The notes below the pieces were generated by a model. It was not told the origin of the DNA. It did not search any database and saw only the letters and a list, made by a program, of their open reading frames with translations. A stretch of DNA of 64,000 nt, taken from the NCBI RefSeq assembly GCF_016278385.1, contig NZ_JADQBY010000028.1, positions 62,001 to 126,000 on the forward strand, read 5' to 3'. The translations under genes and the position numbers were made by a program. Each line of letters starts with the position of its first letter. The stretch's first letter is position 1. This document shows positions 48,453-56,067 of the stretch, piece after piece. The stretch comes from Methanolobus sp. GTDB lineage: Archaea; Halobacteriota; Methanosarcinia; Methanosarcinales; Methanosarcinaceae.

Positions 48453-48589
48453 TGATTTCTCAAACATCCTGGTCGGAACAGCTACAATAAGACCTGACAA
48501 ATGCTGATTTTGTAAGTACTTCATCCTGTGGTGTAAAAGAAACAGGATATCTGTATCCTTGAAGTATCCCAGACAAAACTTGTGATAAG

Positions 48590-48625
48590 AAGTGACCACA
48601 AAAAGACGATTAGAACGTGGGCATT
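48590..48625 (+). repeat. Degenerate copy of the fic-flanking inverted-repeat element
   Basis: AGTGACCACAAAAAGACG followed by ATTAGAACGTGGGCATTTTT. It aligns with the element before fic (GGTGACCACAAAAG...TAGAATGTGGTCACCCATTTT): the left arm matches 9 of 10 and the right arm about 6 of 10, with 15-nt spacing. It stands just before the COG1855 remnant. Confidence 0.5.
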
Positions 48626-48673
48626 TTTGAGGGCATGCAAGAGGGCGAGGTCATACGGATGAAGGAGGGCTGA
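48619..48673 (+). pseudogene. Remnant of a COG1855 C-terminus
   Basis: Seventeen codons read GIFEGMQEGEVIRMKEG followed by TGA. They match the end of the PIN-PilT-KH protein encoded at 45330 (DIFEAMQEGVVIRVKEI) at 12 of 17 positions, in the same order and with the stop at the same place. Only this tail remains. It is evidence that a second gene of the family once ended here. The rest of the 48.45-48.74 kb gap shows no gene. Confidence 0.6.
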
Positions 48674-48738
48674 AGGGCCTGTAACAAGCCCCCTAATGTG
48701 GATTTTATTCATTAATTCATGAGATAGTGCAGGAAGAG

Positions 48739-49161
48739 TTAGTAATGTGTGCTTAGATATTCTGCGACATATCTGGCAAATGTATCGAAGTCATCCAGCC
48801 TTTCGGTTAGGAACGTATACAGAATATCAAGGTCTACTTCTTCGTACATGTGAACCAGAATATTCCTAAAACCTGCTGCCTGAGCAAATTCTTCTGCAAA
48901 TTCACCTGGAATTATTCTGTTTTTGCCAAGTATTAGGAACACACTTCTGTACATCTCAGGCCGTTCAAATCCTTCTCTTGAGATTATTATTTCACCAATA
49001 TCTATTGCACTTTCAATGGCAAGCTGGAAATTACGCTCAACAGCGCTGCGAAGTTCGTAATTATTCTCCAGCTCGGTGCTGCCAGCATCTACGGATTTAA
49101 GATAACTGACACATCTTTGCATGAAACTCAGTTTCCGGAGGATCTTGTCATCATCACGCAT
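48739..49161 (-). CDS. hepT: HepT-like toxin (HEPN/DUF86 ribonuclease)
   Basis: 140 residues, a helical HEPN protein. The RNase motif R-x4-H appears as FRNILVHMY (about 113-121), with the earlier Glu/Asp helix ERNFQLAIESAIDIGEIII. In HepT/MntA systems the nucleotidyltransferase adds AMP to a Tyr of the toxin near this motif (RxxxxHxY); here the Tyr is present in HMY. The gene is immediately after mntA (stop and start adjoin), as in other type VII toxin-antitoxin pairs. Confidence 0.88.
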   Translation of the reverse strand: MRDDDKILRKLSFMQRCVSYLKSVDAGSTELENNYELRSAVERNFQLAIESAIDIGEIIISREGFERPEMYRSVFLILGKNRIIPGEFAEEFAQAAGFRNILVHMYEEVDLDILYTFLTERLDDFDTFARYVAEYLSTHY

Positions 49162-49617
49162 TCAAACCAGCCCCTTTTCCATAATTCTTTTAAGCATGTT
49201 TTGATTCAGACGGTCCTCATAGTATTTCCAGTCCAGATACATTGACATTATGCGATGTTCCACATCCACCCTCAGGCTGTGGTCCCTTGCATGGATAAGG
49301 ACGTTTTGTTTAATTATCTCAAAACTAAGCACCGGTGATGTGTCATTGATTACCAGAAGATCAATATTGTCACTTTTGAGTAAAGTGGTGAGACTGCCTA
49401 TCAGCTCAATGCGTTTACGATTTCTCTGTGCTTTTGTCATTGATTCTGACAAATAAACACCTATATCGATATCACTCAGGACACCGGCTTTCCCCTCTGA
49501 CACTGATCCAAAAAGGTAAGCAAGCTCAACGTATTCCTCTTTCTTAAAGAAGTCTTTGAGGAGAGGAAGCAATTGTTCTTTTTGCGGAATAGGATTTCCT
49601 GTGTTCATAAGAGCCAC
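49162..49617 (-). CDS. mntA: MntA-like nucleotidyltransferase antitoxin
   Basis: 151 residues read from GTG 49617; ATG 49608 is possible. The minimal nucleotidyltransferase motif is AYLFGSVSEGKAGVLSDIDIGVYL (GS-x10-DxD, about 34-57). The third carboxylate is in SDNIDLLVIND. Neutralises HepT by AMPylation in characterised pairs. First gene of the TA operon. Confidence 0.88.
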   Translation of the reverse strand: MALMNTGNPIPQKEQLLPLLKDFFKKEEYVELAYLFGSVSEGKAGVLSDIDIGVYLSESMTKAQRNRKRIELIGSLTTLLKSDNIDLLVINDTSPVLSFEIIKQNVLIHARDHSLRVDVEHRIMSMYLDWKYYEDRLNQNMLKRIMEKGLV

Positions 49618-49762
49618 TAAAGCTGAGTTATTCTAAATATTTAGTATGTATTTATGGATGATAAAGGTTAAGTAATTGATTTTAAGGAAATAGAAGATAG
49701 GACATCAATACAACCCGCCACAAATCAATACATGTGCATTTCTTCCGCATTATAGGATAAAT

Positions 49763-50440
49763 CTATTTTTTTTCTCCGCAATAACCACAAATTCCCATCC
49801 TGGGAGAATTAACTACGGGCAGTACCATTTCTTCACTGCATTCAAAATCTTCGCAACAGTTATCGCAATAAAATACACGTCCAGCGTCACTACAGTAAAT
49901 ACATACCTGTGTTGCTGGTTTTCCACACTTTATACACACAAATTCAAAAGGAAGGTTCCGTGCCATAAGTATTAATTTTTCATTCCGACCTGCTCCTGTA
50001 CTTATTGATAATACCTTTAGTTCCAATTTAGTTGTCGACCCGAAATCATACTCATACATGAATTCCAGTCCTTCAAAAAGAACATCTTTCAATTGCACTT
50101 CCATACTCTTGTTTCTATCAAATTCAGGATAGAGATCGGGATCTGAATCGTAAATTTCACTACCAATCCTGAACATACTTAGGTGACCACAGCACTCCAT
50201 CCACCTATCCCTCAAAAACTGATCAATATCTTTCAAAGAGGTATTAGCAGACACATCCAAATACATACAATACTGTTTTTTATAGTAGCCTCTTACCTGA
50301 ATGCAATAATAGACTTCTTCCCCTGGATGATTTTGTTCTATTCTGACCTTACAATTCTCCAGATGCTTTTTGATAGCAATTTTACCGAAAATTTCACCGC
50401 AATAATTACATTCAACACGTTCTTTCGCCTTCTTCATCAC
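49763..50440 (-). CDS. pRiA4b ORF-3-like protein with zinc-finger ends
   Basis: 225 residues. The N-terminus has a C2HC-type finger (CNYCGEIFGKIAIKKHLENC). The middle (YCMYLDVSANTSLKDIDQFLRDRW, FEYMYEYDFGSTTKLELKVLS) is the plasmid pRiA4b ORF-3 domain found in mobile and defence contexts. The C-terminus carries two more Cys pairs sets (CIKCGKPATQVCIYC, YCDNCCEDFEC and CGYCGEKK). Likely nucleic-acid binding. It lies between the TA pair and the fic locus. Function unknown. Confidence 0.7.
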   Translation of the reverse strand: MMKKAKERVECNYCGEIFGKIAIKKHLENCKVRIEQNHPGEEVYYCIQVRGYYKKQYCMYLDVSANTSLKDIDQFLRDRWMECCGHLSMFRIGSEIYDSDPDLYPEFDRNKSMEVQLKDVLFEGLEFMYEYDFGSTTKLELKVLSISTGAGRNEKLILMARNLPFEFVCIKCGKPATQVCIYCSDAGRVFYCDNCCEDFECSEEMVLPVVNSPRMGICGYCGEKK

Positions 50441-50534
50441 ATTATTCCCCGTATAATTTTCTTGTTACTCTTCTTTTTAGTTCCATGTCCTGATAAAAGT
50501 TAGGAGGGTTTTTCGAACTATCCTTTGTTACTAA

Positions 50535-50648
50535 GGCTTGGCAACTGAAAAAGTCATCAATGATAGAGATACCAGGAAAGAAGCCCTTGAAAATATGAAA
50601 GTGGCTATTGAACTGGTGATTGAAGGCAGAAGGATTTTTTCCTCATAG
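50535..50648 (+). pseudogene. hicB remnant upstream of fic
   Basis: An open frame of 37 codons without start, from just after a TAA to TAG 50646-50648, reading DTRKEALENMKVAIELVIEG near its end. It matches the C-terminal half of the hicB at 51702 (DSKEEALENIKEAIEMVLEV), and the two share a 19-base identity (50578-50596 and 51799-51817). The N-terminal half is lost. Its stop overlaps the first base of the inverted-repeat element that precedes fic. Confidence 0.65.
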
Positions 50649-50683
50649 GTGACCACAAAAGTGCTATATAGAATGTGGTCACC
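50648..50683 (+). promoter_or_regulatory. Inverted repeat around the fic TATA box (copy A)
   Basis: GGTGACCACA (50648-50657) and TGTGGTCACC (50674-50683) are perfect 10-bp inverted arms around 16 bp that contain the TATATAG box (50665-50671). A protein bound to both arms would control fic. A second, almost identical element follows the gene (51594-51628). Confidence 0.75.
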
Positions 50684-50692
50684 CATTTTAGT

Positions 50693-51589
50693 ATGCATAT
50701 AGAAAAAAGAAAACAGGGACAGAACACAAAGTACTACCTGTCCCACTCCTACCGTGTCGGAAAAAAGACGAAGAAGATACGGCACTACCTGGGCCTTAAC
50801 CTGACAGAGAAAGAAATTGAAGAGCGCAGGGAAGATGCTGAAAAGGAAATAGAGCAGCAGATACAGGCTAAGACCGACCTGTTAAAATTCTCCCTCAAAA
50901 GAAAAGAGATAGAAAAGCTGAACGAGTACGACAGGGAGATAGAGGTCGTCCATCTTGATGTTGCGGGCTGGAAAGCCTTCACCGAAAAGTTCGTTTTCAA
51001 TACCAATGCCATCGAGGGCTCAATGGTCAGCCCGGAAGAGGTCCATGACCTGCTCAGTCACAATGAGGAGGCCACTAATTCTGATGAAATCGAGGCATTG
51101 AATGTCGCAAAGGCTGTGGATTTCATACAGAACACAGATGAAGAGCTGTCACTGGAACTCATAAGAAAACTACACAGGATATGTTTTGACGGTTCCAAGA
51201 AGTTTGCCGGCAACCTGAGAGATGTGGAAGTGGTGATACGCAACGCCTACGGTGAAGTGGTACACCGCGGCATCCCAAAGGAAGAGATTGAAAATGAGCT
51301 TGTGGAACTTTCAGACTGGTACAACGACAATGCCAATGACCTGAAGCCCCTGGTACTGGCCGCCCTAGTCCACAACCAATTCGAGTATATCCACCCCTTC
51401 GAGGACGGCAACGGCAGGGTCGGAAGACTGCTGCTGAATTATGTGTTGTTACGGCATGATTACCCGCCCATCAACATACTGTTCGAGGATAGGGGCAGGT
51501 ACTATCGGTGTTTGCAGCAGTATTCCGGCGAGGATAAGCTTGAGGATACGCTGGAGTTTTTAGTTGAGCAGTATCAGAAGGGGGTTTAA
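50693..51589 (+). CDS. fic: Fic/DOC family AMPylase, class II
   Basis: 298 residues from ATG 50693, which is about 26 nt after the TATA box (leaderless); GTG 50675 lies before the transcription start. The active-site loop HPFEDGNGRVGR is intact (about 237-248), and TNAIEGSMVS upstream carries the inhibitory (S/T)xxxE(G/N) motif of class II Fic proteins. The N-terminus (RKQGQNTKYYLSHSYRVGKK) followed by a coiled-coil stretch is the usual archaeal arrangement. Fic enzymes transfer AMP to proteins; the target is unknown. Flanked by inverted repeats and by a broken and an intact hicB. Confidence 0.93.
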   Translation: MHIEKRKQGQNTKYYLSHSYRVGKKTKKIRHYLGLNLTEKEIEERREDAEKEIEQQIQAKTDLLKFSLKRKEIEKLNEYDREIEVVHLDVAGWKAFTEKFVFNTNAIEGSMVSPEEVHDLLSHNEEATNSDEIEALNVAKAVDFIQNTDEELSLELIRKLHRICFDGSKKFAGNLRDVEVVIRNAYGEVVHRGIPKEEIENELVELSDWYNDNANDLKPLVLAALVHNQFEYIHPFEDGNGRVGRLLLNYVLLRHDYPPINILFEDRGRYYRCLQQYSGEDKLEDTLEFLVEQYQKGV

Positions 51590-51593
51590 GATG

Positions 51594-51628
51594 GGTGACT
51601 ACATTATGGAATCAGATTTGTGGTCACC
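51594..51628 (+). promoter_or_regulatory. Inverted repeat after fic (copy B)
   Basis: GGTGACTACA (51594-51603) and TGTGGTCACC (51619-51628) with a 15-bp spacer. The right arm is identical and the left arm differs by one base from the copy before fic. It sits between the fic stop and hicB. There is no TATA box inside, so it is not simply the same promoter repeated. Confidence 0.7.
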
Positions 51629-51701
51629 TATAAGAGAGTTTACAATATCTTTTTGCCTTATACATACGGAACTAATATACTAGAATCACTGATGAATAGT
51701 T

Positions 51702-51887
51702 ATGGAGTATACAATCGTTCTTGAAATTGCAGAAGAGGGCGGATACACTGCACGTTGCCTGGAACTTCCGGCAGCGATCAGTGAGGGAGATTCCAAAGAA
51801 GAAGCCCTTGAAAATATCAAGGAGGCCATTGAAATGGTGCTTGAAGTCACTGAGGAACAGGCAAGCAGTCCATTGTGTTGCTTTTAA
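51702..51887 (+). CDS. hicB: HicB-like antitoxin, orphan
   Basis: 61 residues forming the RNase H-like HicB core: EYTIVLEIAEEGGYTARCLE, LPAAISEGDSKEEALENIKEAIEMVLE. No DNA-binding domain follows and no hicA is found on either side, so it may be an orphan or pair with a distant toxin. Its last bases overlap the convergent methyltransferase gene by 4 bp. A broken relative lies 1.1 kb upstream. Confidence 0.85.
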   Translation: MEYTIVLEIAEEGGYTARCLELPAAISEGDSKEEALENIKEAIEMVLEVTEEQASSPLCCF

Positions 51888-52453: not shown

Positions 52454-52745
52454 CTATTCTGTAGTAAAATTGGTTTTCTAGTTTTAAATAATTCTTGCTT
52501 TGAGAGGATTCTAGCAGTTTTATTGTTAAAAAATGGTATAAACAATACAAAACAATAGTGACACTTTGAAAAACTCACAATAAAAGTAGTAAACTCGAGT
52601 TCATCCTTCCAACTGAGATATTCTACAGATTCATATTTTCTTTTTTAACATGTATTCTAGTTGATATGCAGTGAATCAGCTCGATCTCTTCAAAAAGAGT
52701 TATAAATTATTCAACTAATTATATTTGAATGGATGTACAAATCAA

Positions 52746-53141
52746 ATGAAACACTACGAAGTAGTTGCAGCAATAATAATTGATAATGATAAGGTTCTAT
52801 GTGTTCAAAGAGATCATGGAAAACACGATTACATTTCTTTAAAGTATGAATTCCCAGGTGGGAAAATAGAATATGGCGAAACTAAAGAACAAGCATTACA
52901 ACGCGAGTTATTAGAGGAACTTGATGTAGATATAGAAATAAAGAGAGAGTTTTTAACTGTAAATCATCAGTATCCTGATTTTAGTGTTACCATGCACAGT
53001 TTCATTTGCACTGCTTTAAACTCAACATTTAATCTAAAAGAGCACATTGCTTTCAAATGGTTAAATCCAGAAAAATTATCGACTTTAGACTGGGCTGAAG
53101 CAGATCTTCCAATTGTTTCAAAATTAATGAAGGAATGTTAA
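52746..53141 (+). CDS. NUDIX hydrolase (MutT/CTP pyrophosphohydrolase-like)
   Basis: 131 residues from ATG 52746; a TATAAATTAT box at 52701-52710 predicts a start at about 52730, which excludes the TTG at 52725. The Nudix box is complete: GGKIEYGETKEQALQRELLEEL (G-x5-E-x7-REL-x-EE). The closest type is the dCTP/8-oxo-dGTP pyrophosphohydrolase group, with WLNPEKLSTLDWAEAD at the end. It ends 1 bp before the PLD-helicase gene, so the two are a unit. Base composition is much more AT-rich than the flanking genes. Confidence 0.88.
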   Translation: MKHYEVVAAIIIDNDKVLCVQRDHGKHDYISLKYEFPGGKIEYGETKEQALQRELLEELDVDIEIKREFLTVNHQYPDFSVTMHSFICTALNSTFNLKEHIAFKWLNPEKLSTLDWAEADLPIVSKLMKEC

Positions 53142-53142
53142 A

Positions 53143-56067
53143 ATGGATCAGTTTCCTGTACATTTATTAGATAGCTTGAAAACTGGCTTTATTGACCAGT
53201 CTTTAGCCTCAAAAAAAGAGTACCTCCCAGAATTACTGGTAAATGATACTGATAATGGAAAAAAAGTACTACAGACTATATCTAGAGAACTAAAAAACTG
53301 TGATGAATTTTGGTTTTCAGTAGCATTTGCAACAAAAAGCGGCGTAGTTTCTTTAATAAATCCACTCCAAGAGCTTGAAAAAGCTGGAATTAAAGGGAAA
53401 ATATTGGTATCCCAATATCAATATTTCACTCAACCAGAAGCATTAAAGTCTTTGTTAAAACTCAAAAATGTTGATTTAAAAATAGCAGTCAATTCTGATT
53501 TTCATGCAAAAGGTTACCTATTCAAAAAAAGCAATCGTTTTAACTTAATTATTGGAAGCAGCAATCTTACAGCTAATGCACTATGCTCAAATAAAGAATG
53601 GAACTTGAAAATATCAGCTACTTCTGACTCAAAATTAATAATTGACTCAATTAATGAATTCAGAAATGAATTTGAAAATGCTGAATTGGTGGATGATAAA
53701 TTCATTGATTCATATGCATCAGATTATAATTTAAAAAAGAAATTCATTTCAAGTTCAATAAAATGCATCGATTCGCACCACAAAGATTCAATAACTCCCA
53801 ATTCAATGCAAAAAGAAGCATTGTCAAATCTGAAAGACTTAAGGTCAAAGAACAAAAATAAGGCTCTGTTAATTTCCGCAACTGGAACAGGAAAAACATA
53901 TCTCTCTGCATTTGATGTTAAAGCATACAATCCGAAAAAGTTTTTATTTGTAGTACATCGAAGAAATATTGCTGAAGCAGCTATGAAAAGCTTCAAACAT
54001 ATTTTTGGCGACCTCAAAAGTATAGGCATTTACTCAGGTAACAAAAGAGAAATTGATGCCGATTTTATATTTTCTACAATTCAAACAATTTCTAAAGATG
54101 ATCACCTAAATCAATTTGATCAAAATCATTTTGACTATATTGTTATAGATGAAACTCATCGAGCAGGTGCAGAAACTTATCAAAAAATACTCAATCATTT
54201 TAAACCAAAATTTTTGTTGGGCATGACTGCTACTCCTGAAAGAACAGATGGATTTGATATCTTTTCTCAATTTGAACACAATATTGCGTACGAAATTCGC
54301 TTGCATAGAGCTTTAGAAGAAAAGATGTTATCAAATTTTCATTATTTTGGTGTAACTGATGTCACTGTAGATGGGCAAGTTTTAGATGAAAATGCAGCTT
54401 TCTCCTTATTAACTGCAAAAGAACGTGTAAACAGGATTATTGAAAAAGCTGAATTTTATGGCTGTGATAATGGTTGCATTAGAGGACTAATATTTTGCAG
54501 TAGTGTCGCTGAAAGTCAGGGACTTTCTGATGCATTTAATTCAATAGGTTACAGAACTGTTTCATTATCTGGAAAAAATACTGAAGAAGAGAGAATTGAT
54601 GCAATAAATAGATTGGAAAGTTCCGATCCGTCTGAAAAATTAGATTATATATTTACTGTTGATATCTTCAATGAAGGAGTGGATATTCCAAAAGTAAATC
54701 AAGTCATTATGTTGAGACCGACTTCATCGGCCATTATTTTTGTCCAACAGCTAGGAAGAGGTTTGCGAAAAGCTAACGACAAAGAATACCTAACTGTGAT
54801 TGATTTCATAGGCAATTACAACAATAATTACTTGGTTCCGATTGCATTATATGGAGACACTAGTTACAACAAGGATACATTACGTAAATTAATGTTAAGT
54901 GGAAGTAGCTTAATTCCTGGTGCTTCAACTATTAATTTTGATCAAATTACGCATGATCAGATTTTTGAATCAATCGACAAAGCAAATTTACAGCTCAAAA
55001 AAGACCTTGTGAAAGATTACGAACTATTAAAGTTCAAGATCGGTGAAATTCCCATGATGATGGACTTTGTGGAACATGGATCAAGAGATCCACAATTGTA
55101 TGCAAACTATTCGAAATCCTATTTCAACTTCGTATTAGATCAAGAAGAATCCTTACAAAAAAAACTATCTGATAGAGAAATCAAGCTTCTTGAATTATTC
55201 TCCAATGAAATTGCAAACACTAAGAGAGTGGAGGAAGTTGTCATCCTTAAAAAGCTGATTTCTGGAAATGTTTTGCAAAAGGGAGAATTAAAATCAATTG
55301 TTTTTGATAAATATGGTATTTTGGTTCCTGATGAAACAATAGAATCATGTGTCAAAAATATCAATTTTGACTTTGTAACTGAAAAGCACAATGGTAATCT
55401 AGTTAGTGTTGGTGAAATATACGATTTAAACATCGTTTCTTATCAAAACGGAATGCTCTCATTTAGTGATCAATTTGTAAATACACTAAAAAATGAAACT
55501 TTCTTGCTTTTTCTAAATGATATGCTAGACTATTCTGAAACAATTTACTATCGAAATTTTGACAAAGATAAGTATGTTGATGGTTTCCTATTGTATCAGA
55601 AATATTCCAGGAAAGATGTTTTTAGAATTCTAAATTGGGAGCAGAATCCTTTAGCACAAAATGTTGGAGGTTATCTCATCAGTCCTGAAAAAACGAATTG
55701 TCCAATATTTGTAAACTATCACAAAGAAGAGCATATATCAAGCACTACGAAATATGAAGAAGGATTTGTCAATAATTCTGAATTCGAATGGATGTCTAAA
55801 TCTAGAAGAAAATTGGATAGCAAAGATGTCGTTACCATTCGAAATTACAAAAATGGTCTTAGGTTGCTTTTATTCATCAAAAAGAGTAATGGAGAAAGCA
55901 ATGATTTCTATTATATGGGTGATGTGACTCCTATTGATGAAAGCTTCGAAGAAGCTACGTTGGTTGATGAAAATAATAGAAAAGTGTCAGTTGTAAAAGT
56001 AAAATATCGGATGAATCATCCTGTTGAAGATTCGATTTATGAGTATATTACAACATCAAGCAATTAA
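53143..56067 (+). CDS. PLD nuclease-SF2 helicase-DUF3427 protein
   Basis: 974 residues. PLD nuclease domain first (FHAKGYLFKKSNRF...GSSNLTANAL, about 123-150, the HxK...N motif, one copy). Then an SF2 DEAD/DEAH helicase: Walker A LLISATGTGKTYLSAF (about 243), DETH box YIVIDETHRAG (about 335), MTATPERTDGFD, and motif VI FVQQLGRGLRKAND (about 530). The C-terminal 400 residues form a DUF3427-type region (NPLAQNVGGYLISPEKTNC, YHKEEHISSTTKYEEGF). Such proteins sit beside NUDIX genes in many prokaryotes and are thought to act in phage restriction or DNA repair. AT-rich and probably acquired. Confidence 0.9.
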   Translation: MDQFPVHLLDSLKTGFIDQSLASKKEYLPELLVNDTDNGKKVLQTISRELKNCDEFWFSVAFATKSGVVSLINPLQELEKAGIKGKILVSQYQYFTQPEALKSLLKLKNVDLKIAVNSDFHAKGYLFKKSNRFNLIIGSSNLTANALCSNKEWNLKISATSDSKLIIDSINEFRNEFENAELVDDKFIDSYASDYNLKKKFISSSIKCIDSHHKDSITPNSMQKEALSNLKDLRSKNKNKALLISATGTGKTYLSAFDVKAYNPKKFLFVVHRRNIAEAAMKSFKHIFGDLKSIGIYSGNKREIDADFIFSTIQTISKDDHLNQFDQNHFDYIVIDETHRAGAETYQKILNHFKPKFLLGMTATPERTDGFDIFSQFEHNIAYEIRLHRALEEKMLSNFHYFGVTDVTVDGQVLDENAAFSLLTAKERVNRIIEKAEFYGCDNGCIRGLIFCSSVAESQGLSDAFNSIGYRTVSLSGKNTEEERIDAINRLESSDPSEKLDYIFTVDIFNEGVDIPKVNQVIMLRPTSSAIIFVQQLGRGLRKANDKEYLTVIDFIGNYNNNYLVPIALYGDTSYNKDTLRKLMLSGSSLIPGASTINFDQITHDQIFESIDKANLQLKKDLVKDYELLKFKIGEIPMMMDFVEHGSRDPQLYANYSKSYFNFVLDQEESLQKKLSDREIKLLELFSNEIANTKRVEEVVILKKLISGNVLQKGELKSIVFDKYGILVPDETIESCVKNINFDFVTEKHNGNLVSVGEIYDLNIVSYQNGMLSFSDQFVNTLKNETFLLFLNDMLDYSETIYYRNFDKDKYVDGFLLYQKYSRKDVFRILNWEQNPLAQNVGGYLISPEKTNCPIFVNYHKEEHISSTTKYEEGFVNNSEFEWMSKSRRKLDSKDVVTIRNYKNGLRLLLFIKKSNGESNDFYYMGDVTPIDESFEEATLVDENNRKVSVVKVKYRMNHPVEDSIYEYITTSSN

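Follow-up and report, generated by a model that had tools for sequence, protein, structure and literature searches.

A SauUSI-Class Restriction Enzyme Gene Paired With a Predicted 5-Methyl-dCTP-Type NUDIX Hydrolase Gene in a Methanolobus Genome

Introduction

In the usual description, a type IV restriction enzyme is a single protein, and self-damage is avoided just by the host leaving its own DNA unmethylated. To our knowledge, active self-protection in the pool of deoxynucleoside triphosphates (dNTPs) is a principle without precedent among other restriction systems. The described proteins closest to those considered here are the restriction enzyme SauUSI and the NUDIX hydrolase Q5LBB1 of Bacteroides fragilis (PDB 3GWY). 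SauUSI is an ATP-driven dimer whose C-terminal SRA domain flips out 5-methylcytosine (5mC) and which shreds the DNA between its target sites (PMC7913695); it cuts DNA containing 5mC or 5-hydroxymethylcytosine (5hmC) and spares N4-methylcytosine (m4C) and glucosylated 5hmC (PMC3874153), and homologs in Euryarchaeota have been mentioned earlier (PMC7913695). Q5LBB1 was screened on 74 compounds and showed kcat/Km values of 6.7e6 M-1 s-1 on 5-methyl-CTP (5-Me-CTP), 4.8e6 on 5-methyl-dCTP (5-Me-dCTP) and 4.4e6 on 5-hydroxymethyl-dCTP (5-HOMe-dCTP), with a 50-fold lower value on 5-hydroxy-dCTP (5-OH-dCTP, 8.5e4) and far lower values on the canonical nucleoside triphosphates (NTPs) (PMC5158307). Here we examine a stretch of 64,000 nucleotides (contig NZ_JADQBY010000028.1, hereafter the window) from the 2.88-Mb assembly of a methanogen, Methanolobus sp., in which genes for homologs of both proteins stand side by side. 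The cassette has its nearest relatives in Methanolobus and Methanococcoides.

Results and Discussion

A Near Full-Length SauUSI Homolog Beside a NUDIX Gene

The gene pair and the domains of its larger product are as follows.

52746..53141, forward strand: NUDIX hydrolase of 131 residues, PADLOC PDC-S07 family, predicted 5-methyl/5-hydroxymethyl-(d)CTP pyrophosphatase (PF00293, E 3.9e-17; PDC-S07, E 7.1e-50; closest PDB entry 3gwy, E 1.1e-43)
53143..56067, forward strand: predicted SauUSI-class type IV restriction enzyme of 974 residues (7clg_A, E 3.2e-225 over residues 10-970; PADLOC mREase_IV model, 782.7 bits, E 1e-235)
53281..53676, forward strand: PLD nuclease domain, residues 47-178, with H121-x-K123 and GSSNLT motifs (PF13091, RE_NgoFVII; aligned to SauUSI H119/K121)
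53791..54768, forward strand: SF2 ATPase/translocase, residues 217-542, with GTGKT (K251), DETH, TATPER and QQLGRGLR motifs (PF04851, PF00271; alignment to 7clg)
55198..56052, forward strand: DUF3427 region, residues 686-970, comprising a coupler and the C-terminal SRA domain (PF11907, E 3.5e-75)
55570..56064, forward strand: predicted SRA-fold 5mC reader, residues 810-974, with pocket residues Y844, F856, V857, E873 and W883 (AlphaFold model, fold comparison and pocket alignment)

The initial annotation, made from the sequence alone, described a NUDIX gene ending 1 bp before the gene for a PLD-helicase-DUF3427 protein with all motifs intact. Both observations were borne out: a check of the open reading frames (ORFs) placed the two genes on the forward strand with a 1-bp gap between the 3' end of the first and the start of the second, and the HxK, GTGKT, DETH and other ATPase motifs are all present in the alignment to SauUSI (PDB 7clg). 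The genes are probably co-transcribed, and the Pfam domains of the pair are NUDIX, PLDc_2, ResIII/Helicase_C and DUF3427.

SauUSI aligns to the 974-residue protein over near its full length, and the SauUSI-type layout is kept, with PLD, SF2 ATPase, coupler and SRA domains following one another in a single chain. Common to both proteins are this domain order, the HxK motif (H121/K123 corresponding to the catalytic H119/K121 of SauUSI), the ATPase motifs and the aromatic Tyr, Phe and Trp of the 5mC pocket. The window protein differs in its archaeal host and in the replacement of M829 by Gly, D858 by Glu and E126 by Lys, the last being a position not conserved in most of the family; I842 of the pocket is replaced by Val. 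An AlphaFold model of residues 810-974, built on an alignment of 17 sequences (predicted local distance difference test score 85, predicted template modeling score 0.84), matched the SauUSI SRA domain best (Z 17.1, root-mean-square deviation 2.2 A over 134 residues), followed by SUVH6 (Z 10.8), AspBHI and MspJI (about 10) and TagI (8.6), with the SRA domains of SUVH5 and UHRF1 also in the range of Z 8-11. The homology and the predicted fold together strongly indicate a SauUSI-class, modification-dependent (5mC/5hmC) type IV restriction enzyme, which makes the protein a new member, from an archaeon, of a family already known. The earlier proposal that the helicase-nuclease attacks foreign DNA is supported by both lines of evidence and narrowed to a predicted restriction of 5mC- and 5hmC-containing DNA. 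Cleavage of such DNA would be ATP-dependent, as in the SauUSI type, for which the preferred sequence is Sm5CNGS.

Several SauUSI-like proteins of Bacteroidota (L006, L008, L009 and L013) carry an extra C-terminal domain of about 170 residues resembling Peptidase_S24/LexA (e.g., L009:8911-9453) with a conserved GESMN...GKIVLV signature, which suggests that these restriction enzymes may be under autoproteolytic, damage-linked control. The corresponding ORFs of about 1150 residues were also considered as NUDIX-helicase fusions or overlapping frames; this was rejected, as the S24-like domain accounts for the additional residues and the reading frame upstream is not open.

The Pair Lacks an m5C Methyltransferase of Its Own

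The host genome contains no match to the m5C methyltransferase family PF00145 (the m4C and N6-methyladenine methyltransferase families were not searched), and no linked DNA methyltransferase was found among the neighboring ORFs examined by Pfam. PF00145 was likewise found in 0/10 further genomes with the pair, and 0/17 SauUSI-class genes in Methanosarcinales lay near an m5C methyltransferase gene. The window pair thus lacks the m5C methyltransferase of its own by which a restriction-modification system of that kind is defined. These absences, together with the full-length SauUSI homology and the SRA reader fold, count against the alternative that the large protein does not depend on modification and serves in repair or in the restriction of unmodified DNA. 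In favor of that explanation, two archaea (G050 and G052) have a more distant PLD-helicase relative next to an m5C methyltransferase, as in ordinary restriction-modification; we regard it as improbable. The two genes concerned (L036 in G052, L037 in G050) encode PLD-helicase-DUF3427 proteins, lie downstream of the methyltransferase gene and adjoin it instead of a NUDIX gene, and may represent the same protein architecture put to genuine restriction-modification use.

Relatives and Predicted Substrate of the NUDIX Hydrolase

Q5LBB1 is the closest solved relative of the window NUDIX (53.5% identity over 127 residues), and the Nudix box, GX5EX7REUXEE, is intact in the latter (GKIEYGETKEQALQRELLEE). 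The two fall in the same clade of a tree of 132 NUDIX proteins, which is built on few columns, has some long branches and was read for its supported groupings only. This clade of 45 members (support 100/95), almost every one of which is linked to a gene for a restriction enzyme or for an m5C methyltransferase, holds the archaeal and Bacteroidota partners of SauUSI-class genes, the partners of prophage SRA-HNH nucleases described below, one neighbor of an m5C methyltransferase and one unlinked member. The structure 5X1X, labeled a 'mutator MutT', was placed beside a Bacilli SauUSI partner. Q5LBB1 differs from the window NUDIX in that it is not discussed together with restriction in the literature examined.

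All members examined have Asp at the position of MutT Asn119, as in E. coli NudG (Orf135; Asp118), a known 5-methyl-dCTP pyrophosphatase which also shares the Nudix box. NudG differs in its lower identity to the window protein (about 32%) and in being a chromosomal gene without a restriction neighbor. An assignment as a MutT-type 8-oxo-dGTPase is contradicted by this Asp and by the score against TIGR00586, 77.1 bits vs. a cut-off of 97.9. The PDC-S07 family of PADLOC is the same protein family, catalogued as a single-gene defense candidate without mechanism and not as a partner of mREase_IV.

By analogy with Q5LBB1, 5-methyl- and 5-hydroxymethyl-dCTP are the probable substrates of the window NUDIX; the substrate ranges of Q5LBB1 and SauUSI coincide, because both act on 5-methyl and 5-hydroxymethyl cytosine. 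The initial annotation had left two roles open for the NUDIX, the removal of modified or damaged nucleotides or the control of a nucleotide signal. The removal of modified nucleotides is favored, with protection of the host rather than attack or damage repair as its predicted purpose, and nothing points to a signal. A NUDIX that makes or destroys a nucleotide signal controlling the nuclease would agree with the use of such signals by some defense systems and with the probable co-transcription of the genes, but no signal synthase or sensor domain occurs in the cassette or its relatives, SauUSI itself acts as a single protein, and the NUDIX most similar to that of the window, an NTP pyrophosphatase, has near diffusion-limited activity on 5-modified (d)CTP. 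We consider a signaling role highly improbable.

NUDIX Genes Accompany SauUSI-Class Genes in Three Phyla

The recurrence of such nucleases beside NUDIX genes, stated in the initial annotation, was seen in a survey of 831 genomes (186 Methanosarcinales, 345 Bacteroidota and 300 Bacilli) with PADLOC models as probes, in which genes up to 5.5 kb apart (less than 100 nt in most cases) were counted as adjacent and only high-scoring NUDIX genes as present. A NUDIX gene lies beside 60/65 SauUSI-class genes across three phyla, comprising 17/17 in Methanosarcinales, 8/8 in Bacteroidota and 35/40 in Bacilli, and three of the five unlinked Bacilli genes are accompanied by a high-scoring NUDIX gene elsewhere in the genome. 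The pairing of a SauUSI-class nuclease with a 5-methyl-dCTP-type NUDIX is widespread. Within Methanosarcinales, both genes occur in 17 genomes, the NUDIX alone in 3 and the nuclease alone in 0 (Fisher p 2e-21, not corrected for relatedness). The NUDIX gene is mostly upstream on the same strand and is downstream and convergent in 8 Bacilli. In a related class of nucleases scoring 380-650 bits, it is present in 30/31 cases, always downstream and mostly convergent, and among more distant PLD-helicases it accompanies 0/15 in archaea, 9/33 in Bacteroidota and 7/40 among the Bacilli matches listed. The nuclease is broken and the NUDIX intact in three Methanosarcinales (G115, G128 and G148). In G148 (L022), the frame of the SauUSI-like gene is interrupted by a TGA right ahead of its SRA-coding part.

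A scan of viral contigs with the window NUDIX gave no matches. With the 3GWY sequence, 13 prophage contigs were recovered in which the NUDIX gene is directly followed, often with a 7-nt overlap, by the gene for a nuclease of 271-278 residues with a C-terminal HNH domain and a weak N-terminal SRA match (one cut by the contig end and one with a disrupted frame). An SRA-HNH gene also overlaps the NUDIX gene at a Bacteroidota locus (L090; PF02182, E 1.2e-40), the NUDIX at L104 is accompanied by a protein related to the prophage HNH nuclease, and a NUDIX gene lies beside an m5C methyltransferase gene at L088. SRA-HNH restriction enzymes (TagI/ScoA3IV type) share their type of 5mC reader with the window nuclease; at L090 and in the prophage contigs they also share its NUDIX partner. 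They differ in their HNH nuclease and the absence of an ATPase. Since this NUDIX family also forms operons with these unrelated nucleases, the NUDIX tracks the 5mC reader and not the PLD-helicase machinery, which is the strongest argument for a 5-modified cytosine nucleotide as its substrate.

The distribution also bears on whether the NUDIX could be a general mutation-avoidance enzyme (MutT/NudG-like) riding along with a restriction gene. NUDIX enzymes are common passengers, and the NCBIfam MutT and NudG models do match the protein, below their cut-offs. Linkage to 60 of 65 SauUSI-class genes in three phyla and in several gene orders, the additional linkage to unrelated SRA-HNH nucleases and the Asp in place of MutT Asn119 in every member all run counter to a passenger, to which we give little credence.

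PDC-S07 NUDIX genes were also observed next to SLFN group 3 (DUF2075-type) helicase genes (L198:4399-6531 and L206:647-2647) and one gene away from another (L104:1819-3645); these helicases are a possible further modification-dependent nuclease partner.

A Proposed Role in Self-Protection at the Nucleotide Pool

We consider it likely that the two genes encode a type IV restriction module equipped with a cleaner of the nucleotide pool, by which 5mC and 5hmC are kept out of host DNA and self-restriction is prevented. In this scheme, for which we infer the activities of the two proteins by analogy with their characterized relatives, and with them the protective role of the NUDIX, the 974-residue protein would form a SauUSI-like dimer and, with its C-terminal SRA domain, flip 5mC or 5hmC out of incoming DNA, whereupon the SF2 ATPase would translocate and the paired PLD domains would shred the DNA. 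Modified nucleotides could arise from the degradation of methylated DNA, a process that releases 5-methyl-dCMP and to which the nuclease may contribute, or could be supplied by phages that synthesize them; a polymerase would insert any that were left over into the host genome and so create targets for the nuclease. The NUDIX would hydrolyze 5-methyl-dCTP and 5-hydroxymethyl-dCTP (and 5-methyl-CTP) to the monophosphate, serving as the housekeeping 'antidote' of an enzyme without a cognate methyltransferase to mark self DNA. Degradation of methylated DNA has been named the likely source of 5-methyl-dCTP, and DNA polymerase incorporates 5-Me-dCTP and 5-HOMe-dCTP as well as dCTP (PMC10742078).

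The asymmetry of the linkage fits protection: nearly every SauUSI-class nuclease has a NUDIX, the NUDIX often stands alone, and three methanogens retain an intact NUDIX beside a broken nuclease. Were the NUDIX, with the same nuclease, a weapon that drains the 5-Me-dCTP or 5-HOMe-dCTP pool of phages with modified genomes, the two activities would be opposed, since phage DNA made less modified would escape the partner nuclease; nor does such a weapon explain why nearly all SauUSI-class genes have a NUDIX while the NUDIX often stands alone. The rate of the 3GWY enzyme on 5-HOMe-dCTP, the listing of the family as the stand-alone defense candidate PDC-S07 and its occurrence without the nuclease are all in keeping with a weapon of this kind, which we nevertheless judge unlikely.

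Several observations weigh against the proposed self-protection module or limit it. The M829-to-Gly and D858-to-Glu changes in the 5mC pocket mean that sequence preference may differ from that of SauUSI. The Asp corresponding to NudG residue 118 is found in every PDC-S07 member tested, so that it marks cytosine specificity generally and not a role in self-protection. Two SauUSI-class genes (G746 and G818) are in genomes without a high-scoring NUDIX; conversely, 41/110 high-scoring NUDIX genes in Bacilli have no nearby nuclease, and the family is conserved in many Bacteroidales without one. The NUDIX gene of G093 (L028) has an in-frame TAG replacing a conserved Gln beside an intact nuclease gene, and the TAG is possibly a pyrrolysine codon or the gene a pseudogene. 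Finally, an m5C methyltransferase was found in 2/17 carriers vs. 46/169 non-carriers among Methanosarcinales, a difference that is not significant (p = 0.25). The two carriers concerned are G128, whose nuclease has a stop codon at residue 268, and G130, which has small methyltransferase pieces only. The depletion of PF00145 in SauUSI-bearing Methanosarcinales, not being significant alone, was dropped as statistical proof.

If the self-protection module is as proposed, it would explain the function of the orphan defense candidate PDC-S07 and give a purpose to known 5-methyl-dCTP hydrolases, and, once the NUDIX is removed, SauUSI-type enzymes are predicted to become toxic during intracellular breakdown of methylated DNA. 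The pairing suggests that type IV self-protection is active and located in the dNTP pool, and it recasts the avoidance of self-damage as a simple question of enzymology and genetics involving two proteins. We found no paper proposing a pairing of a NUDIX with modification-dependent or type IV restriction in the literature that could be searched. More tentatively, and with somewhat less confidence than doubt, we propose that cytosine-modification-dependent restriction in prokaryotes is often two-part, a nuclease of the SRA type being joined by a 5-methyl/5-hydroxymethyl-dCTP pyrophosphatase dedicated to keeping the modified base from entering the host genome, with self and non-self set at the nucleotide pool and not by DNA methylation, and that such systems were assembled several times (SauUSI-like, SRA-HNH and perhaps the SLFN-helicase partners).

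Composition, Synteny and History of the Cassette

The cassette had been described as clearly more AT-rich than its neighbors, and this holds against a reference of 281 ORFs of at least 150 residues from about 0.4 Mb of sampled contigs of the same genome: the GC content is 0.315 for the helicase gene (31.5% vs. 40.9%) and 0.321 for the NUDIX gene, vs. 0.409 +/- 0.040 in the sample. GC at third codon positions (GC3) is 0.245 for the helicase gene vs. 0.373, and among genes of at least 900 bp 4/134 are equally AT-rich. The codon-preference scores of the two genes are ordinary (31st and 14th percentile). The nuclease gene has a GC content of 0.29-0.32 in 7/8 relatives checked, at loci of 36-47% GC as well as at lower ones, with Mammaliicoccus as the sole relative in which it equals that of the host. 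Since the gene is AT-rich in 7/8 relatives regardless of the GC of the locus, low GC is a property of the nuclease family and weak evidence of recent transfer.

Among the findings that the initial annotation had set against a defense cassette were a composition equal to the rest of the genome and synteny conserved in all relatives. The composition is unusual, but synteny is kept among Methanolobus carriers; 6/27 genomes of the genus carry the pair and 21/27 do not. In G116, both flanks match the window, with the cassette 88.8% identical and the flanks 79-88%, and in G118, G128, G130 and G115 a UDP-glucose dehydrogenase gene lies 3' of the cassette, as in the window. This retained synteny, together with the absence from 21 genus members, identifies the cassette as a patchily distributed resident gene pair and not a fresh insertion. 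Recent horizontal insertion was considered as the cause of the low GC and rejected, as the low GC recurs in nearly every relative checked and the G116 cassette and flanks are similarly diverged. No flank match to the window was found at the Methanococcoides and Methanosalsum loci. The window cassette is closer to that of Methanococcoides vulcani (86.6% identity) than to that of Methanolobus G118 (84.5%), which suggests that it has moved between genera. A NUDIX-SauUSI pair with a 55% identical nuclease also lies beside other restriction genes on a Hymenobacter plasmid (L159, NZ_CP114769.1); the module therefore moves on plasmids.

Start Sites and Neighboring Genes

One further feature precedes the pair.

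about 52700-52707, forward strand: candidate archaeal TATA box TTATAAAT for the NUDIX-helicase operon, proposed from its sequence only

Its distance to the ATG at 52746, which is the NUDIX start used in relatives (131 residues, MKHYEVV...), would fit a short leader. The TTG at 52725, at which the NUDIX gene had earlier been started, is unlikely because it directly follows the TATA-like box and relatives use ATG 52746.

The toxin-antitoxin surroundings noted earlier were recognized again: a HepT/nucleotidyltransferase pair, a Fic gene and a 61-residue HicB-like ORF adjoin the cassette. The stretch at 48463-51862, which holds the HepT/nucleotidyltransferase pair, a PRiA4_ORF3-like gene and the Fic gene with its atypical GC3 of 0.61, has no match in the syntenic G116 locus and is a variable toxin-antitoxin spot beside the cassette.

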